Assembly (NCBI GenBank): GCA_031256035.1
Contig: JAIRRJ010000119.1
Location: forward strand, 1 to 61,418
Direction: 5' to 3'
Origin: Treponema sp.
GTDB lineage: Bacteria > Spirochaetota > Spirochaetia > Treponematales > Breznakiellaceae
Length of the DNA stretch: 61,418 nt
Part shown: in pieces, positions 2,982 through 43,186 of the stretch
Layout: each line of letters begins with the position of its first letter
Position numbering within the stretch: the stretch's first letter is position 1
Position numbers and translations under genes: made by a program
Notes under the pieces: generated by a model
The model's input: only the letters and a program-made list of their open reading frames with translations
Told to the model about the DNA's origin: nothing
Database searches by the model: none

Positions 2982-2985
2982 ATAT

Positions 2986-22319: not shown

Positions 22320-24344
22320 CTAATACCCGAAATACCCTGCCGCCGCAAAACAGCACAAGGCAAGAAGCGTGATAGCAATTATGTACGGCAGTTTGGCGCG
22401 GTAATATTTCATCGGATTAATTCCCAGTATGTCTCCGATAAAAAATATATCCCCAAGGGCGATTTCATTTCCAATCAAGCCCGCGGCACAGACAGCGCCT
22501 ATGTAAAGAGCGGTATTTCCGCCGGCAGTGGCGGCAAAGCTGACGGCTGTCGGTATTCCGATGGCATACATTGCCCAGGGATTGTCGAATAACGCGCCGA
22601 CCAATGTACATACGCTGAAAATGATCGCGGGCAGAAGCCACACCTGCCCCCGGATGAGGCTATGTACAAGCTCGTCAAGCCACGCGGAAAGCCCTATGTC
22701 CTCCATGCCGTTGGCAAAACATTTTCCGACAAGAAATATGGTAATGGGCGCTATCATACTCTCCATACCATAAAGAATATTTTTAAAGAACTGTTCGGGA
22801 GTCATATACTGCTGGAAACAATAGAGCAAAAAAGTAAATATCAGCGTAATGCACATCCCATACAGTACGTTTACCTGAAATGCTCCCTGTTCAAGAGTTC
22901 CGGCGATGATTGATGAGATAATAAGGACTAAAACCGGGAGCAGAATGTTTAACAGACGTCCGCGGCTGAATTGATCTTCTTCGGTTTCGATGTTGTCAGT
23001 ACCTTCCGGCCACAAGTCGCCTCCTTTTTTAACTCGCACCTGCGCTTGCTTGAGACCGCCGGCAAGTGGCAGTTTATCAACAGCCAGAAGCAGTATAAAT
23101 ACAATTGCAATAATTGCACCGTAGTTGTAACGGATTGATTCCAGGAAAAATCCTTTCTCCCCTGAGGACATTGCGATAACGCCTGTAAGGTAAATGCCGG
23201 TTATGGAAATTGGGTTTAATATGCACAACGCGCCGGGCATCATTCCCAGAAAAACAGCGCTTTTTTCCCTTGGGATTTTTTTTGCATCCATGAGGGATCT
23301 AAAGCAGGCGCCGTTAATAAGCACTGACAAATATTCATCAATTGCTATTAGTACCATCGACAAAAACGCGGCGAGGAAAGTACCAAGAGTACCCTTGGTA
23401 CTCAGAGTACCTTTCGTACTTTTTATTTTCTGCTGAACAAAATATTTTAAGTCATTAATGCTGCCGGATGCGGAAAATAACCGCGCCAATGACCCCATGA
23501 GCAAAACTATCAGAATAATATCAACAGTACCGCCGATTGTGCCGCTCAAGTGTACGGTAAAATCCCCGATAAAGTTGAACTTGGACAGCAGTATCATGAT
23601 ATACATTGTCGAAAGCACTAATGCTTCAAGGGCGCGCTGGGTGATGACCATGTAGGCTACCATGAACACAATGGGTGAACAAAGCCACAGGGGGTGCATA
23701 TGTTCCGTGCCATGCCGGGGCGCAAAAAAGAGAGCGGCGCAGAAAACTAAAAATACCACACAGTAATTAATAAACAGCGAATGAAATGTCTGCTTTTTTC
23801 TGGAGCTTCCATAACCGAAGCCCCTTTTTGTATTGAGAATCTTGACCAGCTTACGGTATTTTTCCGATGCCTGATCATAAACATTTTTCAAAAATAAACT
23901 GTAAATAACCGGGTGCTTCTGTGTCAGATATAAAAGAATTTCCTTATTCAGTTTATAAACCCGGACAGCTCCCCGCGCCTGTATATCCGCCAGGCGTTTT
24001 TCCCCGGTAATGGCGGCATATTCTCCAAAATACCTGCCCGGCTGTAGTTCATTAAGTACCTCGTTATTCTTGCCCAGTACAATGACCATCCCTGATTCGA
24101 TGAAATACATATCATGCGCATCGCCTCCGGCACGGCAAATGAAACTGTTATGTGTATATTCTTTCGGTGTCAAATGGAGCATTATAAAATCCACTAGGCT
24201 CACATCCTCCTCGGAACTGCCTAACTGGAAAAAATTTTGAATATAATCGCGGGTGATGATGTTTGCGCGGGAGACTTCGTTGCAAGATGCGCGGGAAACT
24301 TCGTTGTAAGATGCGCGGGAAACTTCGTTGCATGATGCGTCCAT
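22320..24344 (-). CDS. Cyclic-nucleotide-binding domain fused to NhaC-like Na+/H+ antiporter
   Basis: A 674-residue membrane protein. Residues about 45-165 form a cNMP-binding (CAP-type) domain: FICRAGGDAHDMYFIESGMVIVL then PGRYFGEYAAITGEKRLADI. After a helical linker, about 12 membrane spans (195-670) resemble the NhaC/ArsB antiporter superfamily. ALFDNPWAMYAIGIP and GGNTALYIGAVCAAGLIGNEIALGD are likely transport motifs. The N-terminal ~25 residues are three copies of a 24-bp repeat and have no clear ribosome-binding site, so translation may start downstream. It begins 34 bases after purD and is probably the last gene of the pur operon. Substrate unknown. Confidence 0.75.
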   Translation of the reverse strand: MDASCNEVSRASYNEVSRASCNEVSRANIITRDYIQNFFQLGSSEEDVSLVDFIMLHLTPKEYTHNSFICRAGGDAHDMYFIESGMVIVLGKNNEVLNELQPGRYFGEYAAITGEKRLADIQARGAVRVYKLNKEILLYLTQKHPVIYSLFLKNVYDQASEKYRKLVKILNTKRGFGYGSSRKKQTFHSLFINYCVVFLVFCAALFFAPRHGTEHMHPLWLCSPIVFMVAYMVITQRALEALVLSTMYIMILLSKFNFIGDFTVHLSGTIGGTVDIILIVLLMGSLARLFSASGSINDLKYFVQQKIKSTKGTLSTKGTLGTFLAAFLSMVLIAIDEYLSVLINGACFRSLMDAKKIPREKSAVFLGMMPGALCILNPISITGIYLTGVIAMSSGEKGFFLESIRYNYGAIIAIVFILLLAVDKLPLAGGLKQAQVRVKKGGDLWPEGTDNIETEEDQFSRGRLLNILLPVLVLIISSIIAGTLEQGAFQVNVLYGMCITLIFTFLLYCFQQYMTPEQFFKNILYGMESMIAPITIFLVGKCFANGMEDIGLSAWLDELVHSLIRGQVWLLPAIIFSVCTLVGALFDNPWAMYAIGIPTAVSFAATAGGNTALYIGAVCAAGLIGNEIALGDIFFIGDILGINPMKYYRAKLPYIIAITLLALCCFAAAGYFGY
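24264..24335. repeat. Three tandem copies of a dispersed 24-bp repeat
   Basis: Units at 24264-24287, 24288-24311 and 24312-24335 follow TGCGCGGGAAACTTCGTTGC plus 4 bases, with one or two differences. Read on the minus strand they encode (S/A)(C/Y)NEVSRA repeats at the start of the NhaC-like gene. Single copies occur in purN, purL and aspS. Confidence 0.9.
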
Positions 24345-24377
24345 ATATTACAGATTAACATATTTTTTAACGGGCTG

Positions 24378-25637
24378 TCAGTACTTTCCGATGTCTTTAC
24401 GGCAGAACATTCCTTCAAAGTTGATTGCAGCAGCAGCTTTATACGCCGCGTTTATTGCACTTTTGAGGTCAGGAGCGGTTGCTGTAATACCAAGCACCCT
24501 GCCGCCTGCTGTATAAAAAGCGCCGTCCCTGTATTCAGTCCCGGCGTGATACACAGCGCTCCCTGCAATGCCGCCTTGTTCATCCAGACCTGAAATAGCG
24601 AAACCAGTCTTGTACGCTGCCGGGTATCCCCCGCTTGCGAGTACCACGCAGGCGGCATGATAGGCGGAAAAGCGTGCCTTCACACTGTCCAGTCTGCCGT
24701 CAGTAACTGCTTCCATTATGTCCAAAAGGTCAGTTTCCAAAAGCGGGAGCACTGCCTGCGTTTCCGGGTCGCCGAAACGGCAGTTGTATTCGATAACCTT
24801 CGGTCCCTGGGGGGTTAACATAAGCCCGAAGTACAGACAGCCTTTGAACGGGCAGCTCTCGTCCCGCATGGCGCGAATGGTTGGCAGAAAAATGTTTTTT
24901 TCGCAGATGGAAGCGATTTCGGCTGTGTAGTGCGGGTTGGGGGCAATTGCGCCCATGCCGCCCGTGTTGGGGCCTTCGTTGTTGTCAAAGGCGCGTTTAT
25001 GATCCATCAAGGACACCATCGGCACGATTGTTTTTCCGTCTGTAAATGCGAGTACCGAAACCTCTGGCCCTGTAAGGAATTCCTCAATAACAACACTGCT
25101 GCCGCTTTCGCCGAACACTTTTTCGCGCATGATTGAATCTAATGCGCTAGTGGCTTCGTTTCTGTCGGCGGCAATGATGACCCCCTTGCCGAGAGCGAGA
25201 CCGTCCGCTTTTATCACCAGCGGGAAGGATGCTGATTTTACGAAATCGGCGGCCTTATCCGCATCGGAAAATGTTTCATAAGCTGCGGTCGGGATGCCGT
25301 ATTTTTTCATCAAAGCCTTGGCGAAGACCTTGCTGCTTTCGATGCGGGCTGCCGCCTTGTTAGGTCCGAAACAGCGGATGCCTATGCTTCCAAGAGCGTC
25401 TACCATTCCGATGGCAAGCGGATTGTCAGGCGCTACGACAACATAATCAATTGTGTTCCGCACGACGAAATCTGTCATTGTGGGAATGTCGTCTGCTTTT
25501 ATTGATACGCACTCAGCGTCGTGGCTTATGCCGCCGTTGCCCGGAGCCGCGTATATTTTTTTTACGCGTTCGCTTTTTTTAAGCGCCTTGACAAGAGCGT
25601 GTTCTCTTCCGCCTCCGCCTATAACGAGTACTTTCAT
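24378..25637 (-). CDS. purD: Phosphoribosylamine-glycine ligase
   Basis: A 419-residue ATP-grasp enzyme making GAR. The start was chosen at 25637, where MKVLVIGGGGREHAL matches the family N-terminus and AGGAG precedes it; an upstream frame extension is not real. The ATP-grasp region shows SFPLVIKADGLALGKGV, VVIEEFLTGPEVSV and GCLYFGLMLTPQGPKVIEYNCRFGDPE. It starts one base after the purN stop and is intact. Confidence 0.96.
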   Translation of the reverse strand: MKVLVIGGGGREHALVKALKKSERVKKIYAAPGNGGISHDAECVSIKADDIPTMTDFVVRNTIDYVVVAPDNPLAIGMVDALGSIGIRCFGPNKAAARIESSKVFAKALMKKYGIPTAAYETFSDADKAADFVKSASFPLVIKADGLALGKGVIIAADRNEATSALDSIMREKVFGESGSSVVIEEFLTGPEVSVLAFTDGKTIVPMVSLMDHKRAFDNNEGPNTGGMGAIAPNPHYTAEIASICEKNIFLPTIRAMRDESCPFKGCLYFGLMLTPQGPKVIEYNCRFGDPETQAVLPLLETDLLDIMEAVTDGRLDSVKARFSAYHAACVVLASGGYPAAYKTGFAISGLDEQGGIAGSAVYHAGTEYRDGAFYTAGGRVLGITATAPDLKSAINAAYKAAAAINFEGMFCRKDIGKY

Positions 25638-25638
25638 T

Positions 25639-26307
25639 TCAACTCCTGTTTCCACACAATTCTCCCCTGCAAAACATGGCGACCGCCTTTGGCAAAAGTT
25701 CCCATTCGCCTTCGCGCATAACGCGCTGCTGCAAAGTTTCGGGAGTGTCACCGGGTAAAACATCAATCGCCTTTTGCAGAATTATTTTACCGCCGTCCAC
25801 TACATTATTTACAAAGTGAACTGTAGCTCCGGTAACCTTTACCCCGTATTCAAGAACCGCTTCATGCACGCGAAGGCCGTAAAAACCTTTGCCGCAGAAA
25901 GACGGTATCAGAGCCGGATGCACATTGATAATTCTGTTTTCATAGCTCTGGAGTACCAGCGGCCCCAGGATACTCAAGAAGCCCGCCAAAACGACAAAAT
26001 CAATTTTGTTTTCAGATAACGCATTCTTAAGCGCGCTGTCCCATTGGCCTATGTCCGCATACTGTTTTTTTTCTATGGTTATCGTTTTTATTCCCGCTTT
26101 TTCCGCGCGTTCTAGGGCAAGAACGCCTGATTTGGTCGATACCACCAGAGATATTTCTCCCCCTGCGAGCTTGCCCTCTTTTTGCGCATCTATTAGCGCC
26201 TGCAAGTTAGTGCCGCCGCCGCTAACAAAAACTGCAATGCGCGGGGAACTTCGTTGCAAAATGCGCTGGAAACTGCCTTCTTCGAAGGGTTGCGAAATGC
26301 GTGTCAT
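25639..26307 (-). CDS. purN: Phosphoribosylglycinamide formyltransferase
   Basis: A 222-residue enzyme that formylates GAR. The core (RIAVFVSGGGTNLQALID, then NVHPALIPSF with catalytic Asn and His, then VDGGKIILQ with Asp) is complete. An extra N-terminal stretch of about 24 residues (MTRISQPFEEGSFQRILQRSSP) is absent from ordinary PurN and is encoded by a copy of the dispersed 24-bp repeat. The ATG overlaps the purM stop (ATGA), so this extended start is probably used. Confidence 0.94.
   Translation of the reverse strand: MTRISQPFEEGSFQRILQRSSPRIAVFVSGGGTNLQALIDAQKEGKLAGGEISLVVSTKSGVLALERAEKAGIKTITIEKKQYADIGQWDSALKNALSENKIDFVVLAGFLSILGPLVLQSYENRIINVHPALIPSFCGKGFYGLRVHEAVLEYGVKVTGATVHFVNNVVDGGKIILQKAIDVLPGDTPETLQQRVMREGEWELLPKAVAMFCRGELCGNRS
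26238..26285. repeat. 24-bp repeat copy plus degenerate second unit in purN
   Basis: 26238-26261 matches the consensus (TGCGCGGGGAACTTCGTTGC...). 26262-26285 starts TGCGCTGGAAACT and then diverges. Together they encode the N-terminal extension of PurN. Confidence 0.85.
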
Positions 26308-27344
26308 ACAAGTTTTAGCCCAAATATGCCCGATTGTATTTCGCCTATGGCGGCGGCTTTTTCACCATTCGATCTAAGGATACGCATGGCTTCATCGGCA
26401 TTTTCACTTGCGACAATTACACACATACCGACGCCCATGTTATATGTATTGAACATATCCTTCTCCGGGATTTTGCCTTCCGCCGCGATAATATTAAAAA
26501 TCTGCGGAGTCTCAATCGCGCTTTTTTGTATCACAGCCCCGACATTTTCACCGAAAGCGCGGGGAATGTTTTCATGAAAGCCGCCGCCTGTTATGTGGCA
26601 TAATGAACGGACGGGGAGTTTTTCAAAAAGTTCAAGTACCGGCTTTACATAGATTTTTGTGGGGATCAGGAGTTCTTCACCTAACGTCCTGCCAAGATCG
26701 TGGAAATGGCGGTTTAGTATATCGTTGTTGCTGTCTATACCGAAAACTTTGCGCGTAAGTGAAAATCCGTTGGAGTGTACCCCCGATGACGCGAGGGCAA
26801 TAATTACATCTCCCGGCTTAACGTTTTTTTTGTCGGGGATTTTTGACCTTTCAACAATGCCGACAGAGAAACCAGCGATGTCGTATTCGTTTTCAGGCAT
26901 AAGGCCAGGATGCTCGGCTGTCTCTCCTCCGACAAGAGCGCAGCCTGCCTGCACACAGCCTTCGGCAACGCCCGCGACAATTTTCTCAACTTTTTCAGGG
27001 ATATTTTTTTCCATTGCAAGATAATCAAGGAAAAACAACGGCCTCGCGCCAGCGCAGATAATGTCGTTTACGCACATGGCGACACAGTCAATGCCGACAG
27101 TATCGTGTTTATCCATCAGAAACGCTATTTTCAATTTCGTGCCTACGCCGTCAGTGCCTGAAACCAGCACCGGCTCACTGCCACTGCTGCCCAAAGCGAA
27201 CAAGCCGCCAAAACCGCCGATCCCCTCAATTACTCCGGGTATCTTTGTGCGTTCAACATGTTTTTTAATAAGTTCAATCGCGCGGTAACCGGCAGTAACA
27301 TCAACTCCTGAGGCTTTGTAACTTTCACTGTAACTGTTTTGCAT
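26304..27344 (-). CDS. purM: Phosphoribosylformylglycinamidine cyclo-ligase
   Basis: A 346-residue AIR synthetase. Motifs GIGGFGGLF, LVSGTDGVGTKLKIA, HDTVGIDCVAMCVNDIICAGARPLFFLDYLA and LVGGETAEHPGLM are all present, with GLASSGVHSNGFSL-type IALASSGVHSNGFSL later. Length is normal. It starts 2 bases after the purF stop. Confidence 0.96.
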   Translation of the reverse strand: MQNSYSESYKASGVDVTAGYRAIELIKKHVERTKIPGVIEGIGGFGGLFALGSSGSEPVLVSGTDGVGTKLKIAFLMDKHDTVGIDCVAMCVNDIICAGARPLFFLDYLAMEKNIPEKVEKIVAGVAEGCVQAGCALVGGETAEHPGLMPENEYDIAGFSVGIVERSKIPDKKNVKPGDVIIALASSGVHSNGFSLTRKVFGIDSNNDILNRHFHDLGRTLGEELLIPTKIYVKPVLELFEKLPVRSLCHITGGGFHENIPRAFGENVGAVIQKSAIETPQIFNIIAAEGKIPEKDMFNTYNMGVGMCVIVASENADEAMRILRSNGEKAAAIGEIQSGIFGLKLV

Positions 27345-27346
27345 GG

Positions 27347-28774
27347 CTACATCTCTTCGCTAATCTTGTACTCGAACTTGCTTTTTTGAACAATCGAAGG
27401 TTCAGGTATGGGATATTCCCCGGTGAAACATCCGGCGCAGAAGCCGCACTTTGCGCCTTCGGCAATTTTTTTAACATTGTCCGTTGAAAGAAAACCGAGT
27501 GAATCGGCGCCGATAAAATCCCTTATTTCGTCCTTACTCATCTTGCAGGCAATAAGATTGTCGCGGCTACTTATGTCCGTGCCGAAATAGCAGGGATTCA
27601 CAAACGGCGGAGACGATACGCGCACATGGACTTCCTTCGCTCCTGTCTCGCGTATCAGCCTTACAATTCTGCTCATTGTAGTTCCGCGGACAATCGAATC
27701 GTCAATCAGCACAACACGCTTGTCCTTGATTGTCGCTTCAATTGTGTTGAGTTTTATCCGCACGGAACGGTCGCGCTCTTCCTGCGAAGGCTGGATGAAC
27801 GTGCGGGCTATGTACTTGTTTTTGATAAAGCCGACTCCGTAGGGGATGCCTGACTGGCGCGAAAAACCCAGAGCGGCGTCAAGGCCGGAATCAGGAACGC
27901 CGATAACCACATCCGCCTGCACCGGATGTTCAAGGGCGAGGAAGACTCCCGCACGAAGGCGGGCGGTGTGTACGCTTGCTCCTGCTATTACAGAATCGGG
28001 ACGCGCAAAATAGATGAACTCAAACACACAAAGGTGGCTTAAACCTTTGCAATGCGTTTTTATGCTGTGCGGACCGTCCTTGTCTACCATCACAATTTCA
28101 CCCGGTTCAAGATCGCGCACAAAGTCGGCGCCAATGCTGTCAAGAGCGCAGCTTTCAGATGCGAATACCGTATCTCCGCCGAGCGTCCCCATACACAACG
28201 GGCGGAAACCGTGAGGATCGCGCACAGCAATCAGCTTTTTGGGTGACATTATAACAAGCGAGTATGCGCCTTCTATTTCGCCCATTGCCTGTTCGACAGC
28301 TTCCTCTATTTTATGCGTGTGGATTCTTTTTTTTGTAATGACATGCAGGATGATTTCTGTATTGCTTGTTGAATGGAATATGGCTCCCTCAAGCTCCAGC
28401 TTTTCGCGCAGGGCGGCGGCATTTGTGAGTCTTCCGTTATGCGCAACCGCCATTGAACCTTTGACGTGCCTCACCACAAGCGGCTGCGCGTTTGAGCGGC
28501 TCTTGTGATCCCTGGAAGAATAGCGCACATGACCCACCGCCATATTTCCGGAACCTAATTTCTCAAGAGTATCCTTTGAAAAAACATCGGGAACAAGACC
28601 AATATCCCTGTGGTATTGCATCAGCCCTTCATTGCAAACCGCAAGCCCTGCACTTTCCTGCCCGCGGTGCTGCAGGGCGTAAAGCGCAAGATGCGCCTGA
28701 GAAGCGACATCACAAGAGGAATTTTTGGAATAAATGCCAAAAATCCCGCATTCTTCATACAGGCTGTCAGACAT
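27347..28774 (-). CDS. purF: Amidophosphoribosyltransferase
   Basis: A 475-residue enzyme for the first committed purine step. The N-terminal glutaminase nucleophile is Cys9 in EECGIFGIY, so a short propeptide would be removed. The PRPP loop reads VVLIDDSIVRGTT. Cysteines in the C-terminal KCGFCAGCFTGEYP indicate the iron-sulfur-containing Bacillus-like type. It follows purC by 3 bases. Confidence 0.96.
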   Translation of the reverse strand: MSDSLYEECGIFGIYSKNSSCDVASQAHLALYALQHRGQESAGLAVCNEGLMQYHRDIGLVPDVFSKDTLEKLGSGNMAVGHVRYSSRDHKSRSNAQPLVVRHVKGSMAVAHNGRLTNAAALREKLELEGAIFHSTSNTEIILHVITKKRIHTHKIEEAVEQAMGEIEGAYSLVIMSPKKLIAVRDPHGFRPLCMGTLGGDTVFASESCALDSIGADFVRDLEPGEIVMVDKDGPHSIKTHCKGLSHLCVFEFIYFARPDSVIAGASVHTARLRAGVFLALEHPVQADVVIGVPDSGLDAALGFSRQSGIPYGVGFIKNKYIARTFIQPSQEERDRSVRIKLNTIEATIKDKRVVLIDDSIVRGTTMSRIVRLIRETGAKEVHVRVSSPPFVNPCYFGTDISSRDNLIACKMSKDEIRDFIGADSLGFLSTDNVKKIAEGAKCGFCAGCFTGEYPIPEPSIVQKSKFEYKISEEM

Positions 28775-28777
28775 TTT

Positions 28778-29488: not shown

Positions 29489-29520
29489 TGTTATCCTCCC
29501 AAAAATTATTCACGAAGATT

Positions 29521-30012: not shown

Positions 30013-30023
30013 GAAACCTCTGG

Positions 30024-30035
30024 ATAGCATGCTAT
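30024..30035. promoter_or_regulatory. Palindrome in the purE-purL divergent spacer
   Basis: ATAGCATGCTAT is a perfect 12-bp palindrome in the 69-base spacer that must hold both divergent promoters. It may be an operator, but no regulator is identified. The spacer is too short for a riboswitch. Confidence 0.4.
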
Positions 30036-30081
30036 AGAAAAAAAGCCACATTGTCTATATAGTTTGAAAAGAGACTGCGCA

Positions 30082-33000
30082 ATGTCCGTATACGAGATTT
30101 ATGTTGAGAAAAAACTTCCCTTTGCCGAGGAGGCGGCCGCGGTTGCCGCCGATTTGCGCCTTGGGCTTCAAATTGAGAATATTGAATCGGTGAGGATCAT
30201 CAACAGGTATTATGCTGAGGGGATTTCAGCGGAAGATTTTAACGCGGCGAAAAACACAGTTTTTTCAGAGCCGCCTGTGGACATCATCTATGACAAGCTG
30301 CCGCATCTTGATGGGACGCATATTTTCGCCGCCGAGTACCTTCCCGGTCAGTTTGACCAGCGCGCCGATTCCTGCGCCCAGTGTATCTCACTGGCAACGG
30401 GGAAGGAACGGCCTGTTATTCGTTCCGCGAAGATATACGCCGTTTCGGGAAATATCACCAATGCTGAAATTGACAGAATAAAAGCGTGGCTTATAAACCC
30501 CGTAGAAAGCCGCGAAGCCGGCATGGATACCCCTGTTACCCTGTCGGAAAAATACCCCGTACCGGACAATGTTGCTGTCCTTGACGGCTTTATCTCCCTT
30601 TCTGTTTCCGGTCTTGAACTGTTACGCGAAAACATGAGCCTCGCGATGGATTTATCCGATCTTCAATTCAGCCAACGGTATTTCCGCAATGAAGAAAAAC
30701 GCGATCCTTCAGTTACCGAGCTGCGTGTGCTGGATACATACTGGTCGGATCACTGCCGTCACACGACATTTTTAACCGAATTGGAATCAATAAAAATTGA
30801 GCATGATCAAATACGCGAAAGTTATGAAAACTATTTAGAACTGCGCTCTGCTCTTGGACGCTCCGGGAAGCCCGTTTCATTGATGGATATGGCAACCATC
30901 GGAGCGAAAGCGTTAGCGGCACGGGGGAAATTGCCCGATCTTGACGAGTCAGAAGAGATAAACGCCTGTTCGGTGAAAATCAAAGTCGATATTAACGGCA
31001 CAGAGCACGACTGGCTTTTGATGTTCAAGAATGAGACGCACAACCACCCCACCGAGATTGAGCCGTTCGGGGGAGCGGCAACCTGTCTTGGCGGGGCGAT
31101 ACGCGACCCGCTTTCAGGACGGGCATTTGTCTATCAGGCAATGCGCATAACTGGCGCGGCTGATCCGCTTCAAACTAATACACTGCCAGGAAAACTGCCA
31201 CAGCGCAAGATTTGCAGGACAGCGGCTTCCGGTTTCAGTTCTTATGGCAATCAGATAGGACTGGCAACAGGCCATGTTCATGAGATATACCATCCCGGCT
31301 ATGCCGCCAAACGCATGGAAATCGGCGCGGTTATTGGAGCGGCTCCAGTTGAAAATGTCATACGCGAAAGACCCGCGCCCGGTGATGTTGTGATCCTCCT
31401 TGGCGGCAGGACAGGACGGGACGGCTGCGGAGGGGCGACAGGCTCTTCAAAATCGCATACTGCAAGTTCTCTTGAAACATGCGGCGCGGAGGTGCAGAAG
31501 GGAAACGCGCCCGAAGAGAGAAAACTGCAAAGGCTCTTTCGCAACTCAGAAGCGGCGCGGCTTATCAAACGCTGCAATGATTTTGGCGCAGGCGGGGTGT
31601 CTGTCTCAGTCGGCGAGCTAGCAGACGGACTTGAGATTGACCTTGATAAAATACCGAAAAAGTACGAAGGCCTTGACGGTACTGAACTTGCTATCAGCGA
31701 AAGCCAGGAGCGGATGTCCGTAGTTGTAGAGCAAAAAGACGCAGAACATTTTATCGCTCTTGCGGCGCGTGAAAATCTTGAGGCTGCGATCATCGCGGAG
31801 GTTACTCAACAGCCGCGCCTTGTCATGAAGTGGAACGGAAAGACAATCGTAAACCTTTCGCGTGAATTTCTTAATTCCAACGGAGCGGCAAAACACGCCG
31901 AAGTTCGCGTAACAGCGCCGCTATTTCCAAAAACTGACAATGCTGCCCTTGAGGCGCATGGGATGGAAAAATTGCTCGCCAGCCTTGCAATCTGCTCGCA
32001 GAAAGGGCTTGTTGACCGTTTTGATTCTATTGTAGGAGCCGCAACCGCCGTTATGCCATTTGGCGGCAAATACCAGCTTACGCCCGCCCAGTCAATGGCG
32101 GCTAAGATACCTGTTTTGAACGGAGAGACAAAAACCTGCTCTCTTATGTCATGGGGTTTTGATCCTGAAATTTCCTCGGTAAGCCCTTATCATGGAGCTG
32201 TCTTCGCTGTTGTTCACTCGGTTGCAAAAATAATTGCGGCGGGCGGGAGCAGAAGCAAATGCTGGCTGTCCTTTCAGGAATATTTCGAACGGTTACGCGA
32301 TGATCCTTCGCGATGGGGCAAGCCTGTGGCGGCGCTTTTTGGCGCTCTTGACGCACAGCTTGGCCTTGAAACAGCGGCAATCGGCGGCAAGGATTCAATG
32401 TCCGGCAGCTTCACCCATAACGGCGTAAATATAGACGTGCCGCCCACGCTTGTTTCATTCGCCGTCTCTGCCGCGAAACTTGAAAACATAGTAACGCCAG
32501 AATTCAAACGCTCAGACAGTATGGTCTATCTTATGAAACCGCCATTCACTATTTACGAAAAATGCGATTTCGCCGCCCTTCGTAATTTTTTTGACAGCGC
32601 AGAAAAAATAATCGCTGAAGGAAAAATCCTCTCCTGCTGGGCTGTAGGTCCCGGCGGAACCGCGGAAGCAGTAACAAAAATGTGCATGGGTAACCGCATC
32701 GGCTTTTCCGCTGAAAAACCTCTTTCGGCGGGAGAAGGTTTCGGCGGTTTTGTCGTTGAAACAAATGAACCCTTGCTCGAAGCGGAACTGCTTGGCCGCA
32801 CCATAGACGAACACACACTTAAAACAAAACTATGGGAAATGCCGTTAGAAAAATTGCAGCATACATGGGAACAGACATTGGAGCCGGTCTTTCCAAACAT
32901 TATTGATCAAAGCGGCAAAATCGAATTGTTCAACTATGACAAGGGCGTAACGATAAAGCCAAAGAGCCATCATGCGCGGGAAACTACGTTGCATTATACA

Positions 33001-33798
33001 AAACCAGTGTTTGTGATACCAACATTCCCCGGTACCAACAGCGAATATGACACCGCAAGGGCAATTGAAAAAGCGGGAGGGGAGGCGCGGATAATTGTTG
33101 TGCGCAATCTATCACCCTCTGACATAGCCGCAAGCGTACAGGAATTAAAAGAAGCGTTTCATTCCGCGCAGGGCATAGTAATACCCGGAGGGTTTTCAGG
33201 CGGGGATGAGCCTGACGGTTCCGGCAAATTCATAACCGCTTTTTTCCGCAATTCCGCTATAACAGAAGCCGTAAACGAACTATTGCAAAAACGAGACGGT
33301 CTTATCTGCGGGATATGCAACGGGTTTCAGGCTCTCATAAAGCTCGGTCTTGTGCCTTACGGCGAAATACGCGGCATGAAAGAAGACTCCCCTACCCTCA
33401 CCTTCAACAAAATCGGAAGGCATCAATCCACGCTTGTCAGAACGCGCGTAGTCTCGAACAAATCACCGTGGCTCTCGCATCTTGAACTGGGAGGCAGTTA
33501 CATTGTTCCCATTTCACATGGGGAGGGGCGGTTCGTTGCTCAGGAATCGCTCATCCGGGAGCTTGCCGCAAACGGGCAGATAGCCACTCAGTATGTTGAT
33601 ATAGACGGCAAACCAACGCAGAACATACGCTTTAACCCCAACAATTCGGATTTCGCGGTTGAAGGCATTACCTCGCCTGACGGCCGCGTCTTTGGCAGAA
33701 TGGGACATAACGAACGCTATGACGATGGTCTTTTCAGGAATGTGCCGGAGGTGAGGAAGATGGATATTTTCTGCGGCGCTGTGGCATATTTTCGGTAG
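30082..33798 (+). CDS. purL: FGAM synthase, single-chain (PurL with glutaminase domain)
   Basis: A 1238-residue enzyme. The start was set at 30082 (MSVYEIYVEKKLPF) after AAAAGAG. The N-terminal domain is followed by a synthetase core: TYWSDHCRHTTF, FKNETHNHPTEIEPFGGAATCLGGAIRDPL and a second half with AIGGKDSMSG. The C-terminal glutaminase has FVIPTFPGTNSEYDTA, GICNGFQAL with the Cys nucleophile and SHGEGRF with His and Glu. Separate PurS and PurQ are therefore not needed. A dispersed 24-bp repeat encodes HARETTLH in the linker ahead of the glutaminase domain. Confidence 0.96.
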   Translation: MSVYEIYVEKKLPFAEEAAAVAADLRLGLQIENIESVRIINRYYAEGISAEDFNAAKNTVFSEPPVDIIYDKLPHLDGTHIFAAEYLPGQFDQRADSCAQCISLATGKERPVIRSAKIYAVSGNITNAEIDRIKAWLINPVESREAGMDTPVTLSEKYPVPDNVAVLDGFISLSVSGLELLRENMSLAMDLSDLQFSQRYFRNEEKRDPSVTELRVLDTYWSDHCRHTTFLTELESIKIEHDQIRESYENYLELRSALGRSGKPVSLMDMATIGAKALAARGKLPDLDESEEINACSVKIKVDINGTEHDWLLMFKNETHNHPTEIEPFGGAATCLGGAIRDPLSGRAFVYQAMRITGAADPLQTNTLPGKLPQRKICRTAASGFSSYGNQIGLATGHVHEIYHPGYAAKRMEIGAVIGAAPVENVIRERPAPGDVVILLGGRTGRDGCGGATGSSKSHTASSLETCGAEVQKGNAPEERKLQRLFRNSEAARLIKRCNDFGAGGVSVSVGELADGLEIDLDKIPKKYEGLDGTELAISESQERMSVVVEQKDAEHFIALAARENLEAAIIAEVTQQPRLVMKWNGKTIVNLSREFLNSNGAAKHAEVRVTAPLFPKTDNAALEAHGMEKLLASLAICSQKGLVDRFDSIVGAATAVMPFGGKYQLTPAQSMAAKIPVLNGETKTCSLMSWGFDPEISSVSPYHGAVFAVVHSVAKIIAAGGSRSKCWLSFQEYFERLRDDPSRWGKPVAALFGALDAQLGLETAAIGGKDSMSGSFTHNGVNIDVPPTLVSFAVSAAKLENIVTPEFKRSDSMVYLMKPPFTIYEKCDFAALRNFFDSAEKIIAEGKILSCWAVGPGGTAEAVTKMCMGNRIGFSAEKPLSAGEGFGGFVVETNEPLLEAELLGRTIDEHTLKTKLWEMPLEKLQHTWEQTLEPVFPNIIDQSGKIELFNYDKGVTIKPKSHHARETTLHYTKPVFVIPTFPGTNSEYDTARAIEKAGGEARIIVVRNLSPSDIAASVQELKEAFHSAQGIVIPGGFSGGDEPDGSGKFITAFFRNSAITEAVNELLQKRDGLICGICNGFQALIKLGLVPYGEIRGMKEDSPTLTFNKIGRHQSTLVRTRVVSNKSPWLSHLELGGSYIVPISHGEGRFVAQESLIRELAANGQIATQYVDIDGKPTQNIRFNPNNSDFAVEGITSPDGRVFGRMGHNERYDDGLFRNVPEVRKMDIFCGAVAYFR
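32973..32996. repeat. 24-bp dispersed repeat inside purL
   Basis: TGCGCGGGAAACTACGTTGC plus 4 bases, one change from consensus. It falls in frame in the linker between the synthetase and glutaminase domains. Confidence 0.85.
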
Positions 33799-34039: not shown

Positions 34040-34080
34040 TGACTTGTTCGGGCGAACAGTTACAAAACCAAGGAGTAAAC

Positions 34081-37726: not shown

Positions 37727-37757
37727 GGGGCGAATGATAAAGGGTGCTCTCCATTCC

Positions 37758-38045
37758 TTACAAATGCGCCGCTATGGTGAATTCCCGCAGGTGTCCAATT
37801 TTATTATGGCGGGCTTTCCAGAGATCGAGTTTTGATTGCATAGTAAGCCAGCTTTCCGCACTGGTATGGGTAACCTTTGCTATTCTTAACGCCATCAGCG
37901 GGCTGCATGATTTCTTCCCATTTACCAATTCCGAAAGCGCCTTTCGCGTTATCCCCATCATACAGGCCGCATCGGTAACCGTTAATCCCAACGGGACAAG
38001 AACGTCCTCATAAAAAACTTCACCCGGATGAACCGGCTTTCGCAT
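37758..38045 (-). CDS. higA: HigA-type antitoxin, apparently without its toxin
   Basis: A 95-residue XRE-family antitoxin: MRKPVHPGEVFYEDVLVPLGLTV, then MMGITRKALSELVNGKKSCSPLMALRIAKV. These are typical of HigA/VapI proteins. The usual partner HigB should precede it, but only its first dozen residues remain, joined in frame to this gene (see the next feature). The longer frame from 38105 may be translated as a fusion, or the ATG at 38045 may be used. Confidence 0.9.
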   Translation of the reverse strand: MRKPVHPGEVFYEDVLVPLGLTVTDAACMMGITRKALSELVNGKKSCSPLMALRIAKVTHTSAESWLTMQSKLDLWKARHNKIGHLREFTIAAHL

Positions 38046-38105
38046 TTTGCAGCGTAAATTCCCGCGTAATCGTTCCAAGCCTTTATGCCTGAAAGACCGT
38101 ATCAT
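38046..38105 (-). pseudogene. Relic of the HigB toxin N-terminus
   Basis: MIRSFRHKGLERL matches the start of HigB toxins (typically MIKSFRHKGLE...). After about 13 codons the toxin is missing and the frame runs through RGNLRCK straight into HigA. This is an internal deletion that fused the two genes. Confidence 0.75.
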
Positions 38106-38260
38106 GGTTTAATCTACTATGTAACCTATGGGGTGTCAATACTTCAAAAAGAGTTCACGCTTGGAGACATCCAATAAGCTGTAACAGGCATTCACTCGAA
38201 AAGAGACTCTCGTACAAACCAAAGGTTCGTAGACACATCGTACCTTCGGTATGCGGGTAC

Positions 38261-38306
38261 AAAAAAAGAGCAGGGAACTGCTGTCAGCGATCCCCGCTCA
38301 AAAAAA
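38261..38306 (-). terminator. Terminator between the outer-membrane protein gene and the HigA locus
   Basis: GAGCAGGGA (38268-38276) pairs with TCCCCGCTC (38291-38299), one mismatch. A-runs lie on both sides, so it works as GAGCGGGGA...TCCCTGCTCTTTTTTT for the minus-strand gene and perhaps in both directions. Confidence 0.75.
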
Positions 38307-38354
38307 GTATCAGTCACCCATGTTGCCTGACCTGGTACAAAATGGAATGTTTAC

Positions 38355-38915
38355 CTAAAACGCATATCCTAAACCGCAGTAGGCAACAAAACCTATGCCC
38401 GCACGAAACTCATTATTTTTTGTGCCATACATCTCCAATGCGCCAAGTGTAATTGGTATTTTAACACCGGGCTGAACAAAAAATCCTCCGGGGTTGCCCA
38501 CATCTATTTTCCAACCTATTTCTGGAGAAATCCCTAGTCCATTAATAGTCCCAAACCATGTTCCTTTAGCACTGTATCCATAACTGGTGTACTCATAATC
38601 GAATGTACCGCTATGTGCATGAAACCCTAGACCTATACCAACAAAGAATGTCTTGCTCCAGATATAGTAACGTCCAGAAAGCCCTATTTCCAATTCATTC
38701 CAGAAAAGAAATAGATTATTCCAATAGATGTTTGCCCCTACCGACCAATTCTGGTCAAGCATACGCTCGTACCTTGCTCCGATACCAAGTAAGCTCACCT
38801 CGCCGGAAATCCAGTTGTCCACTGAATTGGCTCTCTTTTCCGCATCATCATCCTGCGCGAAAACCCATCCTGCAATAAATATTACAAGAACAAGAAAAAT
38901 TACTCTCTTTTTCAT
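38355..38915 (-). CDS. Outer-membrane beta-barrel-like protein
   Basis: A 186-residue protein. The start was set at 38915 (MKKRVIFLVLVIFIAGWVFAQ, a signal peptide) behind AAGGAG. The mature part alternates hydrophobic and polar residues with many aromatic residues (LSGRYYIWSKTFFVGIGLGFHAHSG) and ends in AYCGLGYAF, an outer-membrane-like terminal Phe. It resembles small barrels of spirochaetes. Function unknown. Confidence 0.75.
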   Translation of the reverse strand: MKKRVIFLVLVIFIAGWVFAQDDDAEKRANSVDNWISGEVSLLGIGARYERMLDQNWSVGANIYWNNLFLFWNELEIGLSGRYYIWSKTFFVGIGLGFHAHSGTFDYEYTSYGYSAKGTWFGTINGLGISPEIGWKIDVGNPGGFFVQPGVKIPITLGALEMYGTKNNEFRAGIGFVAYCGLGYAF

Positions 38916-38958
38916 TGAAAAACTCCTTCGCGGCTTTAATGTCTCCGCAGACATATTT

Positions 38959-38980
38959 TAAAATCTCATATGAGATTTTA
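38959..38980. promoter_or_regulatory. 22-bp perfect palindrome upstream of the outer-membrane gene
   Basis: TAAAATCTCAT and ATGAGATTTTA meet with no spacer, 44 bases before the start codon at 38915. It could be an operator or an mRNA hairpin. No regulator is known. Confidence 0.6.
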
Positions 38981-39010
38981 TTCACAGAACAACCTTCTTC
39001 CCTGATCTTC

Positions 39011-39050
39011 CCTTTGTGTCCTTCGTGCCTTGGCGCCTTTGCGCGAACTC
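39011..39050. repeat. REP-like CTTTGTGTCC element
   Basis: CCTTTGTGTCCTTCGTGCC, then TTGGCGCCTTTGCGCGAAC. Related CTTTGTGTCC stretches occur at 44172-44200 and 45340-45390, all between genes or at gene edges. Confidence 0.5.
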
Positions 39051-39099
39051 TTTTCTCTTCATTCTTCACTGCTCACTCCTCACTGGACACTTTTCACTG

Positions 39100-39795
39100 T
39101 TACGGTATAACCGCCGACAACATCGGTCCAAACGGCCCCGCTTCCCCTCTTGGGTTTTCATACCTCAAACAAAAGTAAATCGTGTTCCCGCTTTCTCCGT
39201 CAAAGTCAAACAACTCTTTTTTACGCCGCCTGAACTTTGAGTGCGGCAGATCATGTCCCGATGTTGGAACTTCTGTCAGGTGAAACTTGTCAGTGGGCGT
39301 AGGATGACCCATAATACCCCAGCACATCTTTACACCGTAGTCGCTGCGCGGATCGGGCATCAGCCCTCCCTCAACCGCGCGGATATTGCGCAGTTCAACA
39401 AGGTGAATGCCGGGAAAGGTAATGTCCGCGATCACTTGCGCAGTAGGCGGCGGAATTGGCGTGGTTGTCGTGCCGGGGGGATTGAGCCCCAGGCTTACAA
39501 AGTCAGAGTTTAAAAGCGGCGGGATAAAAAACTTGCGTTTCTTCATGTTCCGCATGAAAGAAATCATGGGATCGAAAGCTTCTTTGCATCTGGCGGTAAC
39601 AACCGCGCTCCGGTCGCCCGCCATCGCTTTTGTAAGAGCCTTGTCTGAATCCTCGATGATGTCTTTCAGTTCCGACACATCCGCAGCAGTGATTTGCCAT
39701 TGAGTTCCTTTGGTTCCAAGGACGCTGTGCCAGTTTTTCGCCATAGCAAGCTGCCCGGTTCGTGAAGTTGGCAGCCAGTCTTTACCGTGAAACAT
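39100..39795 (-). CDS. Unknown protein, DW(I/L)P-type N-terminus
   Basis: A 231-residue protein. The start was set at 39795 (MFHGKDWLPTSRTGQLAMAK) because a strong GGAGG lies six bases before it. The frame itself stays open upstream to 39960 through a 21-bp repeat array. There is a helical N-terminal half (about 10-90) and a Thr/Pro-rich linker (NPPGTTTTPIPPP). A beta-rich C-terminal half ends KKELFDFDGESGNTIYFCLRYENPRG. Similar architectures occur in uncharacterised proteins of several phyla. No signal peptide. Function unknown. Confidence 0.65.
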   Translation of the reverse strand: MFHGKDWLPTSRTGQLAMAKNWHSVLGTKGTQWQITAADVSELKDIIEDSDKALTKAMAGDRSAVVTARCKEAFDPMISFMRNMKKRKFFIPPLLNSDFVSLGLNPPGTTTTPIPPPTAQVIADITFPGIHLVELRNIRAVEGGLMPDPRSDYGVKMCWGIMGHPTPTDKFHLTEVPTSGHDLPHSKFRRRKKELFDFDGESGNTIYFCLRYENPRGEAGPFGPMLSAVIP

Positions 39796-39813
39796 AAATA
39801 TCCTCCGTTGTAT

Positions 39814-40023
39814 GTTGATGCCCGTTTGAGGCAAAATTGCACCCGTCCGTGTCAAAATTACGCACTTTTGATGCAAAAGGGTACCCTTTCTGGACAAAAT
39901 TGCACCCTTTTGAGGCAAAATTGCGCCCGTCCGCGCAGGAATTGTACCCTTTTGATGCAAAAAGGTACCCTTTCGGGGTAAAATTGCACCCTTTTGAGAC
40001 AGAATTGCACAATTCCCTATGTA
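39814..40023. repeat. 21-bp minisatellite with 84-bp higher-order repeat
   Basis: The 483-base gene-free stretch 39796-40278 is dominated by about ten 21-bp units of type AATTGCACCCTTTTGAGGCA(A). Units 1-4 (39835-39918) and 5-8 (39919-40002) match pairwise, which makes two copies of an 84-bp super-unit. The unit length keeps reading frame on both strands. Spacers differ within each unit, so it is not a CRISPR array. Confidence 0.9.
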
Positions 40024-40093
40024 AGCGGATTTTGCGGCTAAGTGAGTGAGATGGTAAATAATTGTAAGGTTTAGTTAACTCTCTTCCATATAA

Positions 40094-40114
40094 AGAGAGA
40101 GAGAGAGAGAGAGA
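40094..40114. repeat. (AG)10 microsatellite
   Basis: An uninterrupted 21-base AG tract lies between the 21-bp array and the chromate-transporter genes, upstream of the minus-strand gene at 39795. Such tracts change length by slippage. Confidence 0.9.
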
Positions 40115-40278
40115 TTCAGGTGAGTTTTCGCGAATGTGCGTGAAAAAGCGCCCCGCGCCCACTTGGGGGTGGTTGTTATTGAAAATAGAGTTTGAACCAC
40201 ATGATGCAGTCATTACTGGGAGTTTATTAAAATCGCGGAAGTTTGTCAATATAAATTTCCATAATTTCTCGAAAAGAT

Positions 40279-40830
40279 TCATAACCCCAGCAAAATCCCA
40301 ACAGCGGCGCTGACTGCAACGTAAATCACCGGGTGTCCCTTGAATTTACGGATTAGAATAAACAATACCGCAAAGACGATAAATTCCTTAATGCGTATTA
40401 TTTCATGCCAAACGCCTGCATCAATGTTTACGAGCGCGACTTTCAACGCGCCAAGGCTTGCCGCTGCCAGCAGGCCGGCGGCGGCGGGGCGCAGTCCTGA
40501 GAAAACAGAGGCTGCTATTTTGTTTTCTTTAATTGTGCTTAACACCTTAGCTGTAAACGTAATTATCAGTATCGCGGGGCTTGTAAGTCCAAGTGCGGCT
40601 ATAAAACCGCCGATGGCTCCGTTTGAGGCAAAACCTGTTTGAGCTGCCATATTTACGCCGATTGCGCCTGGTGCGGACTGGGCTATCGCCAGAAAATTCC
40701 CTATTTTCTCATAATCAAGCCATTCGTATTTATCCGCCATCCGGAAAAGAAAAGGCAGAGTCGCCAGCCCGCCGCCTACAGCAAACAGTCCTATCTTGAA
40801 AAATTCGATGTACAGGAAAAACAGACTCAA
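40279..40830 (-). CDS. Chromate transporter family, half-size protein 2
   Basis: A 183-residue membrane protein with about six hydrophobic segments. FFKIGLFAVGGGLATLPFLF and AIAQSAPGAIGVNMAAQTGF are CHR-domain hallmarks. The start is TTG (40830) behind GGGAGGG and overlaps the upstream stop. With its partner it makes a short-chain CHR pair that probably forms one transporter. The real substrate may not be chromate in an anaerobe. Confidence 0.92.
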   Translation of the reverse strand: MSLFFLYIEFFKIGLFAVGGGLATLPFLFRMADKYEWLDYEKIGNFLAIAQSAPGAIGVNMAAQTGFASNGAIGGFIAALGLTSPAILIITFTAKVLSTIKENKIAASVFSGLRPAAAGLLAAASLGALKVALVNIDAGVWHEIIRIKEFIVFAVLFILIRKFKGHPVIYVAVSAAVGILLGL

Positions 40831-41381
40831 GCGCTGCCCTCCCCTGTTTTCACGTAACCCCGGAAAAACAAAAACCCGGCAAGCCCTGAGCCCAAAATGA
40901 TAAACACAGGTGAGATGCTGAACACTGCCGAAAGGATAAGCGCCATGACAAAGACGATTACAGCCTTATGGTTACGCATAACGCCCTTGTTGAGTTTAAG
41001 CAGCGTATCGATAATAAGAGCGCATACCGCGAGCCTTATGCCGGTAAAGGCATGGCGCACAATTTCGTATTCGGCAAATCTCCTGATAAACGTTGAGATG
41101 ATTACCATAAGGCTCACACCCGGCAGGATAAGCGCAACCGTGGCGATCATTCCGCCTGCAATGCCTTTGCGTTTGTAGCCGACAAAGGTCGCGACATTTA
41201 CCGCGATCACCCCCGGCGTAATCTGCGAAATGGTAAAGTAATCCATCACTTCTTCCATAGAGACCCAGTTTCGTTTTTTTATCAGTTCCCGCTCAAGAAC
41301 AGGGAGCATGGCATAGCCGCCGCCGAAGACAGATGCGCCTATAACGAAAAAAGCCCAAAACAGTTCAAGTAACTCTTTCAC
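40827..41381 (-). CDS. Chromate transporter family, half-size protein 1
   Basis: A 184-residue membrane protein with FWAFFVIGASVFGGGYAMLPVLERELI and ISQITPGVIAVNVATFVGY, the N-terminal-type CHR domain. It starts with GTG overlapping the aspS stop (GTGA) and overlaps the second half-size gene. The two probably act as a heterodimer. Being coupled to aspS, it may simply share its transcript. Confidence 0.92.
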   Translation of the reverse strand: MKELLELFWAFFVIGASVFGGGYAMLPVLERELIKKRNWVSMEEVMDYFTISQITPGVIAVNVATFVGYKRKGIAGGMIATVALILPGVSLMVIISTFIRRFAEYEIVRHAFTGIRLAVCALIIDTLLKLNKGVMRNHKAVIVFVMALILSAVFSISPVFIILGSGLAGFLFFRGYVKTGEGSA

Positions 41382-43186
41382 TTTTCCTGCTCTTGCCGAT
41401 TTTGCAACGAAGTTTCCCGCGCCATTGTTATGCGCAGTTCATCAAGCTGCTTTTGATCGACTTCCGAGGGGCAGTCATCCATCGGGCTTACGGCAAATGA
41501 ATTTTTCGGGAAGGCGATAACATCCTTTATTGAGGATAGCCCTGACATAATCATCACCAGGCGATCAAGTCCGGGGGCGATGCCTCCGTGCGGCGGCGCT
41601 CCGTATTTGAAAGCTTCAGTTAGAAAACCGAACTTTTTCTCGGCATCTGCCGGATCAATCCCCGCTATTTGAAATACTTTTTTCTGCATTTCCGGGTCGT
41701 GGATACGGATAGAACCTGATGCCAATTCATAACCGTTAAGAACTAAATCATACAAATCGCCCTTTACGGAGCCTGGGTCTCTTTCCATTGTCGCGTGATA
41801 CTTTTCCTGCGGCCATGTAAATAAATGATGAGCCGCCTCCCACTTTTGTTCGTCTTCGTTGTATTCAAACATGGGGAAGTCGATGATCCACACAAACTCA
41901 AAACGCGCCGGATCGCAAAGGTTTAAGTCCTTGCCGAGTTTTGAACGCACTGCGCCAAGAGCGGTATTGGCAATCCTGCGTTTTGCGTCCGCTACAACAA
42001 GGATAAGGTCTCCCTCAGCCGCGCCAAGGTCGCTTATTATCTGCGCGGCGTTATCTGCAAAGAACTTCGCGACTCCGCCTTCCAGAGCGGAATTCGCAAC
42101 AACCTTCATCCACGCCATGCCCTTTGCCTTGTAAATCTTTGCGTGCGCTTCCAGTTCTTCTATCTGTTTGCGCGAATAGTCCGCCCTGCCCTTCACAACC
42201 AGCGCCTTTACTGCTCCGTCTTGTAACAGCGCATCCTTGAAAGCCTGAAAGCCCCCAGCTTCTGCAAACGGGCTAAAATCCTTAAGCGGCATCTCAAAGC
42301 GCAGATCGGGTTTGTCGCTCCCGTAATTTTCCATCGCCTCTTCCCATGTCAGGCGGCGAAAATGTTCGGGCAATTCTGTATTAAGAGTTTTTTTGAACAC
42401 ATGATGCATCATCCCCTCTGTCATGGACAGCACGTCGTCCCTGCCTACAAAGGACATCTCAATGTCGATTTGCGTAAACTCTGGCTGCCTGTCGCCCCTT
42501 GCGTCCTCATCGCGGTAACAGCGTGCAATCTGAAAATATTTATCAAAGCCGGAAGCCATCAATAGCTGCTTGTAAAGCTGGGGCGACTGAGGCAGGGCGT
42601 AAAACTTGCCCGGATACAGCCGTGATGGAACAAGGTAATCCCGCGCCCCTTCCGGCGTGGATTTAATGAAAGTGGGAGTTTCAATTTCATAGAAACCGTT
42701 AGCCGTCATCCATTCGCGGATTGCGAAAGTAACCTCGCTTCGCAGCCTGATCCTGTTCTGCATCGCGGCGGAGCGAAGGTCAAGATAGCGATATTTCAGC
42801 CGCAAATCTTCGTTTGCTTTGCTTTCTTCATCGATTTGGAAAGGCAACACTTCCGATTTATTCAGTATCACAATTTTCGTGGCGGCAACTTCGATTTCTC
42901 CGGTTTCCATTGAAGGGTTTACCATATCGTCCGGGCGCGGACAGACAATCCCGGCAGCGGCAATACAGTATTCATTGCGCAGTTCCTGACAGAGCGCGGC
43001 AAGATCATCAGCCCCCGACTCAGTATCAACCGTTACCTGCGTTATGCCGTAACGATCCCTCAGGTTAATAAAAAAAATCCTGCCGTGATTGCGCTTTCGG
43101 TGAACCCATCCGTTAAGGATCACCTCACGCCCCGCATCGCTTTTTCTCAACGAACCGCAATCGGCAGTTCTCTTCATCGCTTCCAT
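41378..43186 (-). CDS. aspS: Aspartyl-tRNA synthetase, bacterial type
   Basis: A 602-residue class II synthetase. The N-terminal OB fold (VILNGWVHRKRNHGRIFFINLRDRYG) is followed by motif 2 (FQIARCYRDEDARGDRQPEFTQIDIEMSF), a GAD insertion domain and motif 3 (HGGIAPGLDRLVMIM). The start ATG has AGGAG six bases upstream. The last residues (MARETSLQNRQEQEK) come from a copy of the dispersed 24-bp repeat and extend the normal end. Confidence 0.96.
   Translation of the reverse strand: MEAMKRTADCGSLRKSDAGREVILNGWVHRKRNHGRIFFINLRDRYGITQVTVDTESGADDLAALCQELRNEYCIAAAGIVCPRPDDMVNPSMETGEIEVAATKIVILNKSEVLPFQIDEESKANEDLRLKYRYLDLRSAAMQNRIRLRSEVTFAIREWMTANGFYEIETPTFIKSTPEGARDYLVPSRLYPGKFYALPQSPQLYKQLLMASGFDKYFQIARCYRDEDARGDRQPEFTQIDIEMSFVGRDDVLSMTEGMMHHVFKKTLNTELPEHFRRLTWEEAMENYGSDKPDLRFEMPLKDFSPFAEAGGFQAFKDALLQDGAVKALVVKGRADYSRKQIEELEAHAKIYKAKGMAWMKVVANSALEGGVAKFFADNAAQIISDLGAAEGDLILVVADAKRRIANTALGAVRSKLGKDLNLCDPARFEFVWIIDFPMFEYNEDEQKWEAAHHLFTWPQEKYHATMERDPGSVKGDLYDLVLNGYELASGSIRIHDPEMQKKVFQIAGIDPADAEKKFGFLTEAFKYGAPPHGGIAPGLDRLVMIMSGLSSIKDVIAFPKNSFAVSPMDDCPSEVDQKQLDELRITMARETSLQNRQEQEK
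41400..41423. repeat. 24-bp dispersed repeat at the 3' end of aspS
   Basis: The minus strand reads GGCGCGGGAAACTTCGTTGC plus 4 bases, one change from consensus at the first base. It encodes ARETSLQ near the C-terminus of AspS. Confidence 0.85.

Follow-up and report, generated by a model that had tools for sequence, protein, structure and literature searches.

A 24-bp Repeat Inserted in Frame within Treponema Genes, a Probable Very Small Mobile DNA Element

A 24-bp repeat dispersed through conserved genes of Treponema sp. was analyzed in a stretch of 61,418 nt (GCA_031256035.1, contig JAIRRJ010000119.1), which in its whole length is here called the window; the genome to which it belongs (G000) is referred to as the own genome. 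Each unit consists of a 20-bp core (TGCGCGGGAAACTTCGTTGC) followed by a 4-nt, mostly A-rich linker. The repeat is probably a very small nonautonomous mobile DNA element that inserts at TGCG and keeps the reading frame. Insertion takes place immediately 5′ of a TGCG-like word matching the first bases of the element itself, generates no target-site duplication, and, at a pair of paralogue sites, involves no deletion. With a length divisible by three and a consensus that, in its commonest linker form, is free of stops, an insertion into a gene should read as eight extra amino acids. An earlier note on this DNA had proposed a dispersed, gene-invading element, a proposal supported by copies throughout the genome, by the location of 82 of 96 arrays in predicted genes, by homologues that lack the extra residues, and by sites found empty at the DNA level.

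Array Anatomy and Target Word

The 3,122,661 bases of the own genome (120 contigs) contain 133 copies with up to two mismatches, and the reversed control pattern has none; the further copies that the earlier note had wished to see searched for are thus plentiful. Anatomy was read from the window and 51 stretches around the best-matching copies (up to one mismatch) among the matches listed, altogether 607,191 bases. At up to three mismatches, this sample contains 119 units, grouped into 96 arrays: 80 single, 10 double, 5 triple, and 1 quadruple. The linker at the array end is AAAA in 43 of 95 cases and otherwise AAGA, ATTA, AATA, or similar.

Sequence ahead of base 1 is near random, except that G is scarce at position −1. 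Past the linker stands a TGCG-like word, and beyond it the sequence is again near random, which gives the element sharp edges. With five arrays added to the 96, TGCG was matched at three or more of its four letters on the right of 66 of 100 arrays (background 5.6%) and on the left of 0 of 101. Left and right 4-mers agree at 278 positions, as against 277.6 after permutation (n = 100); they do not covary, which speaks against a target-site duplication.

Across 188 units from the own genome and relatives, the core varies mainly at positions 1, 3, 6, 9, 11, 14, and 17. In 8 of these units the pair 11 and 17 shifts jointly from A-T to G-C (0.43 expected), in a variant that is one of two search templates and whose origins are perhaps few. 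The joint change fits a small hairpin, A10-A11-C12/G16-T17-T18, with a weak fold. By local GC skew, 30 of the 47 arrays scored are leading and 17 lagging. An RNA family was considered and rejected, an Rfam scan over the five-unit array of locus L334 having returned two matches only, both far under the gathering scores.

Filled and Empty Sites

Two paralogues of the own genome (L050 and L065, 85% identical) have a single unit apiece. Site and orientation differ between them, and either gene is empty at the place occupied in the other. In both, removal of exactly 24 bases restores a junction without gaps. With the caret at the junction, the empty sites read GATGA^CGCTGG, where the filled copy continues TGCTGG (a synonymous difference), and AGCGAC^TGCGG. 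One member of the pair matches Radical_SAM; the other may be frameshifted upstream.

Between genomes, the G019 counterpart (L139) of a filled site in G011 (L342) is empty and gap-free, with flanks of 92% identity. The junction in HflX is empty and gap-free in 13 relatives, four of which (L263, L264, L273, and L284) read TGCGC there. In G312, a Treponema from outside the family, a unit lies within ATGCTGAAACAAGT^TCAGCATGAC, an imperfect palindrome once the unit is removed. One orthologous site holds a single unit in G019 and five in G020. In a further pair of orthologues from G011 and G019 (L344 2019, + strand, and L338 1979, − strand), units of opposite orientation occupy nearly the same place, to within a few bases, so that the two insertions look independent. 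Another set of homologous genes has units near comparable places (L041 731; L044 5045, −; L333 in the region 2213–3276, −; L334 2428; L336 1992); these differ in orientation and copy number, and two of the genes are hybrid histidine kinases according to NCBIfam.

Host Genes in the Window and Homologues without the Extra Residues

Copies of the 20-mer occur in the window at 24264, 24288, and 24312 (+), 26238 (+), 32973 (+), and 41404 (−), each with at most one mismatch. Six copies at up to three mismatches compare with 0.03 expected by chance, and 0 of 100 shuffles reached six. The copies named in the earlier note, those of the tandem trio, purN, purL, and aspS, are all present, and the peptides that it had read from them (CNEVSRA, LQRSSPR, and ARET(S/T)L) are correct.

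Three of the units stand in strict tandem at 24264..24335 (+), with linkers AAGA, AAGA, and ATGA, and are followed directly by TGCG at 24336–24339. The array is antisense to its host, a membrane-protein-like open reading frame of 674 amino acids at 22320..24344 (−), and encodes CNEVSRAS-YNEVSRAS-CNEVSRA at the N-terminus. The only domain found in this protein is a cyclic-nucleotide-binding domain (residues 61–144), and the name NhaC-like given to it previously was not confirmed. In purN (25639..26307, −), a 24-bp unit with linker AAAA occupies 26238..26261 (+), as noted before; what had been taken for a second, degenerate 24-bp unit is a 36-bp variant with a longer apex (TGCGCTGGAAAC-TGCCTTCTTCGAAGG-GTTGC-GAAA) at 26262..26297 (+). 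Their combined 60 bp correspond in length to the 20 residues that separate MTRI from AVF, and the PurN family match starts at residue 23, past the insertion. Extended-apex variants were considered as a general class and rejected, the purN unit being the sole case among 89 matches in own-genome stretches, where four other nonstandard matches proved to be tandem neighbors.

The unit in purL (phosphoribosylformylglycinamidine synthase, 30082..33798, +) lies at 32973..32996 (+), has the linker ATTA, and encodes ARETTLHY. That of aspS (41378..43186, −), GGCGCGGGAAACTTCGTTGCAAAA at 41400..41423 (−), encodes ARETSLQN in the C-terminal tail, and the element starts where the aspartate–tRNA ligase match stops, at residue 590 of 602. 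A decayed unit at 38045..38068 (−), which scores 24.8 bits over 28 positions with the adjoining TGCG counted in, lies in the antitoxin gene higA (37758..38105, −) and encodes RGNLRCK directly ahead of the HigA family match, which starts at residue 21. The identities of PurN, PurL, AspS, HigA, and HflX were confirmed by NCBIfam scores over the curated cutoffs.

Proteins were aligned with 29 relatives for each of five genes (HflX, Der, PurL, PurN, and AspS). HflX of the own genome has eight extra residues; 27 of the 29 relatives have none there, and the other two have unrelated residues. Der carries 16 extra residues, corresponding to two units, relative to L291, and the element residues occur in 0 of 29 relatives, one of which (L301) has another insertion at this place. 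PurL has eight extra residues compared with L201, AspS has an extended tail, and where PurN has 20 extra residues between MTRI and AVF, L145, L146, and L151 read MTRIAVLVSG. The element residues appear in 0 of 28 relatives covering the respective region of PurN, PurL, or AspS; the extensions of these three proteins, which the earlier note had thought foreign to their families, are indeed missing from the aligned homologues. Alignments to solved structures likewise place a gap at the element in HisC (3hdo, 8 residues), IspH (3dnf, 1+7), FabD (3h0p, 7), and CysS (3sp1, 7); the gap is longer in TrmD against 1p9p (17+1) and broken into pieces in MnmA against 2der.

Position in Genes and Reading Frames

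Gene prediction used a hexamer-based caller, for which long open frames from the 607-kb sample served as the training set; 91.5% of the sample was called coding. Arrays overlapped a predicted coding sequence in 82 of 96 cases, a 5′ extension in 8, and intergenic sequence in 6. All six frames are used, with 26, 12, and 10 arrays in the antisense frames and 8, 8, and 18 in the sense frames. The consensus with its commonest linker contains no stop in any of the six; this openness and the length of 24 bases explain why the element does not spare genes. The octapeptides would accordingly be expected among the translated products, to judge from the reading frames.

The earlier note had located the copies at sites that tolerate additions. 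Protein ends are in fact enriched, with 25 of 82 arrays within 20 residues of one (about 10.5% expected), and the remaining 57 are interior, so that a restriction to termini does not hold. Surviving copies probably lie mainly in surface loops and termini. Core substitutions fall on codon positions 1, 2, and 3 in the numbers 25, 33, and 26 (27.3, 27.2, and 29.4 expected), with no synonymous bias and hence no sign of codon-level selection following insertion. The host presumably gains nothing from the element.

An NCBIfam scan of 50 element-bearing proteins left 14 without a match at 1e-12. CysS, ThrC, MutS2, FolC, YifB, TruA, TrmD, IspH, MnmA, TrkA, and YgiQ scored over the curated cutoffs, and HisC, FabD, TrkH, and MetH under them; the identity of Der rests on two GTPase stretches and an EngA-type KH domain. 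An insertion into a tRNA gene of G013, suspected from a GGGTTCGACTCCC flank, was rejected, as ARAGORN found no tRNA there.

Age and Distribution

A 28-position profile retrieved 122 matches from the 607 kb, namely, 118 already counted and 4 decayed, and none from shuffled sequence; the stretches were chosen around good copies, and the count of decayed copies holds for those stretches. With few decayed matches and no synonymous bias, the copies look recent. Within the genus, a degenerate pattern matched 19 of 39 genomes, the own included, and found no match in the other 20. Copy numbers fall from 133 in the own genome to 27, 14, 12, and 11 in the next four, and range from 0 to 4 elsewhere. Across the order, an exact match to a narrower pattern was obtained in 21 of 390 genomes, representing 4 of 91 genera and two families. 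The genome G056, from another genus of the family, has 76 copies, and its matched contig of 4,059,867 bases is about a whole genome. In the ten stretches of it that were read, 8 of 12 units have the linker AAGT, and each of the 11 arrays falls in an open frame exceeding 100 codons. Over the own genome and relatives, tandem arrays reach six units. A phage vector was also considered; one 30-kb IMG/VR contig has a copy (L410 1710–1729).

Other Repeats

A second dispersed repeat of about 40 bp, which starts AGGGGAACCTTCGC, has ten exact 14-mers in the own genome and matches in 23 of the 39 genus genomes. Its exact copies in the sampled stretches are located at L036 6103 (−), L044 10132, L050 11327, L053 3337, L068 9175 (−), L069 2526 (−), and L073 6974; four of these seven fall in predicted genes, one of them truA, which is also a host of the 24-bp unit. 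At L099, L100, L055 14906, and L071 1895, 24-bp units lie within other palindrome-like repeats, as if nested, of the types CTTCGACAGGC^TCAGCA and CGTACC^TGCGGTACG. The window itself contains about nine degenerate 21-bp units (CCCTTTTGAGGCAAAATTGCA) at 39821–40010, which span two overlapping minus-strand open frames and are unlike the 24-bp unit in sequence, and, at 40094–40114, 10.5 uninterrupted copies of the dinucleotide AG, within the open frame 39782–40282 (−).

Mechanism and Alternative Explanations

Several observations weigh against a mobile element that keeps the frame of its hosts. Mobility and peptides are predicted here from DNA sequence. In a check independent of open frames, the coding score of 150 bases on either side was determined for 101 arrays and 1500 random places. 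The flanks of the arrays were coding in the same frame in 53 cases, in different frames in 24, and on one side in 19, with neither side coding in 2 and 3 arrays too near an end; the random places gave 996, 124, 322, and 58 for the first four classes. Flanks in different frames are thus commoner than at random and those in the same frame rarer, so that many copies lie at gene borders; about half lie well inside genes. Host-frame stops arising from linkers are rarer than expected (1 in 100 against 7.6 permuted) in a comparison that is partly circular, genes being called as open frames; the frame test free of this circularity gave 0 stops in 53 own arrays and 16 of relatives, and with 7 in 996 at random places it has little power. 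Genomes G002 and G011 are both filled at one homologous gene site; some insertions may therefore be old, or the site may be a hot spot, and not all need be private to one genome. A stable hairpin was rejected, the consensus DNA fold not being stable.

Two families of candidate mobilizers add to these points. Of the five genus genomes with more than ten copies, three (G000, G020, and G011) have Y1_Tnp matches and two (G012 and G019) have none; among the 34 others, 14 have such matches. A transposase of the kind associated with repetitive extragenic palindromes (RAYT) was rejected as the mobilizer, given no link to copy number; G000 has a single Y1_Tnp match, and the surrounding 12 kb contain 0 units at up to three mismatches. 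Reverse transcriptase was rejected as well, RVT_1 being present in 11 of the 39 genus genomes, that is, in two of the five high-copy genomes and nine of the 34 others, and not in G000.

Viewed from the other strand, the insertion geometry places the element 3′ of CGCA and has the element itself end in CGCA. An element that starts with TGCGC, stands 5′ of TGCGC without duplication, and forms head-to-tail tandems fits both single-strand cutting at CGCA and a template switch at TGCG. The element may move as DNA by a host activity acting at TGCG/CGCA, the likeliest routes being transposition of single strands (HUH, IS200/IS605-like) and template switching to copies already present. Each insertion would put one TGCG beside another, so that further units could be added head to tail. 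A mobilizer is expected under the single-strand model, and since the two families tested do not track the copies, the mechanism is one that we infer.

Copying by template switch or gene conversion, with no transposase involved, is a serious possibility, though we would not favor it. Replication would stall at TGCG, anneal to the TGCG of an existing, possibly tandem copy, copy n × 24 bases, and return to the target. This accounts for a target matching the element's own first bases, for lengths of n × 24 and tandems of up to six units, and for a copy number tracked by neither tested mobilizer family. Such copying should at times carry along neighboring donor sequence, whereas the edges are sharp, and the presence of the same core in two families of the order points instead to sequence recognition. 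The alternative concerns the mechanism only and shares its insertion history with the mobile element proposed here.

A signal under selection at the DNA level (an uptake sequence, a chromosome-organizing site, or a protein-binding site) that falls in genes by chance is improbable. Its strongly conserved core, found in all frames and orientations and in other genera too, is what such a signal would show, but 20 of the 39 genus genomes are without a match, and in the five genes tested the aligned relatives share none of the sites. To our knowledge, moreover, DNA uptake sequences (DUS) and uptake signal sequences (USS) do not arise by exact insertions that leave tandem copies.

That the peptide is what selection keeps, as a tag, spacer, or localization signal, is very hard to credit: the copies are mostly within predicted genes, as it would have them, but six frames yield six unrelated peptides, and substitutions lack a synonymous bias. 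Equally implausible as a full account is an in-gene minisatellite expanded by slippage, which would explain array length (the strict 24-bp period of tandems, and one against five units at one orthologous site) but not dispersal, 80 of 96 arrays being single and at unrelated sites. An artefact of assembly, binning, or adaptors, to which an assembly in 120 contigs and the closeness of several arrays to contig ends (C32, C14, and C52) might point, can practically be dismissed in view of the 76 copies of G056 with matches on a contig of 4,059,867 bases, the copies in Treponema assemblies of several accession series, and the reading frames kept.

The insertion of a mobile element thus remains our preferred reading. 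A bolder version of it is offered tentatively, as a possibility that we rate below even: the repeat might be the smallest known family of selfish DNA spreading through translated sequence, a 24-nt element moved in single-stranded form by a CGCA-cutting host enzyme and unlinked to any transposon, whose in-frame octapeptides, seeded in several lineages of one spirochaete order, scan the proteomes of their hosts for insertion-tolerant loops.

Comparison with Known Systems

Among the top-ranked and mainly non-subscription papers covered by a literature search, no description recognizable as the 24-bp Treponema repeat was encountered. Unlike a miniature inverted-repeat transposable element (MITE), the unit has ends formed by direct rather than inverted TGCG, and it makes no target-site duplication. 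The IS200/IS605 family inserts beside a fixed short word without target duplication. The 24-bp unit resembles it in the fixed flanking word and the absence of duplication and differs in having no linked transposase, no Y1 transposase that tracks copy number, no stable terminal hairpin, and a total length of 24 bp. Repetitive extragenic palindromes (REPs) are described, in an excerpt of the source paper, as mostly extragenic, with a palindromic core, and located beside RAYT (PMC3116915). Like REPs and REPINs, the unit is short, reaches high copy number, and is possibly moved in trans; in contrast to them, 82 of 96 arrays lie in predicted genes and only 6 are intergenic, and no copy stands within 12 kb of the only Y1_Tnp of G000.

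Nearest in size and habit are the small dispersed repeats (SDRs) of cyanobacteria, given 24 bp, 133 copies, and few of them decayed. Elhai and co-workers reportedly characterized cyanobacterial SDRs in 2008 as 21–27 nt long and recently mobile. Some SDR families have a hairpin backed by compensatory changes. We know of no SDRs that are mass invaders of protein-coding genes, and, as far as known, the sequences differ; the 24-bp unit also belongs to another phylum. At least one SDR of Nostoc and relatives, SDR5, has exact insertion sites inside the short target word HIP1, according to the portion of a paper that deals with it (PMC4390886).

The palindromic elements of Rickettsia, to which the earlier note had compared the repeat, are presented in excerpts of two papers as short dispersed DNA that is tolerated in frame within genes of conserved proteins, with lengths of about 105–150 bp, terminal inverted repeats, and long stem-loops (PMC2229807, PMC10969869). 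The comparison holds for in-frame invasion of conserved genes, seen here in the 82 of 96 arrays and in residues absent from relatives. It fails for the structural features of that family: the Treponema unit is without terminal inverted repeats or a stable fold, uses six frames, and targets TGCG, in a different host. Known cases of mobile DNA invading coding sequence come mainly from Rickettsia, and also from Wolbachia, with elements several times longer. A unit of 24 bp raises the question of what moves so short a sequence. Keeping the frame, open in all six frames, and present in dozens of one genome's conserved enzymes, it would be mobile DNA small enough for near-neutrality inside genes and would amount to a natural experiment in insertion tolerance across a proteome.

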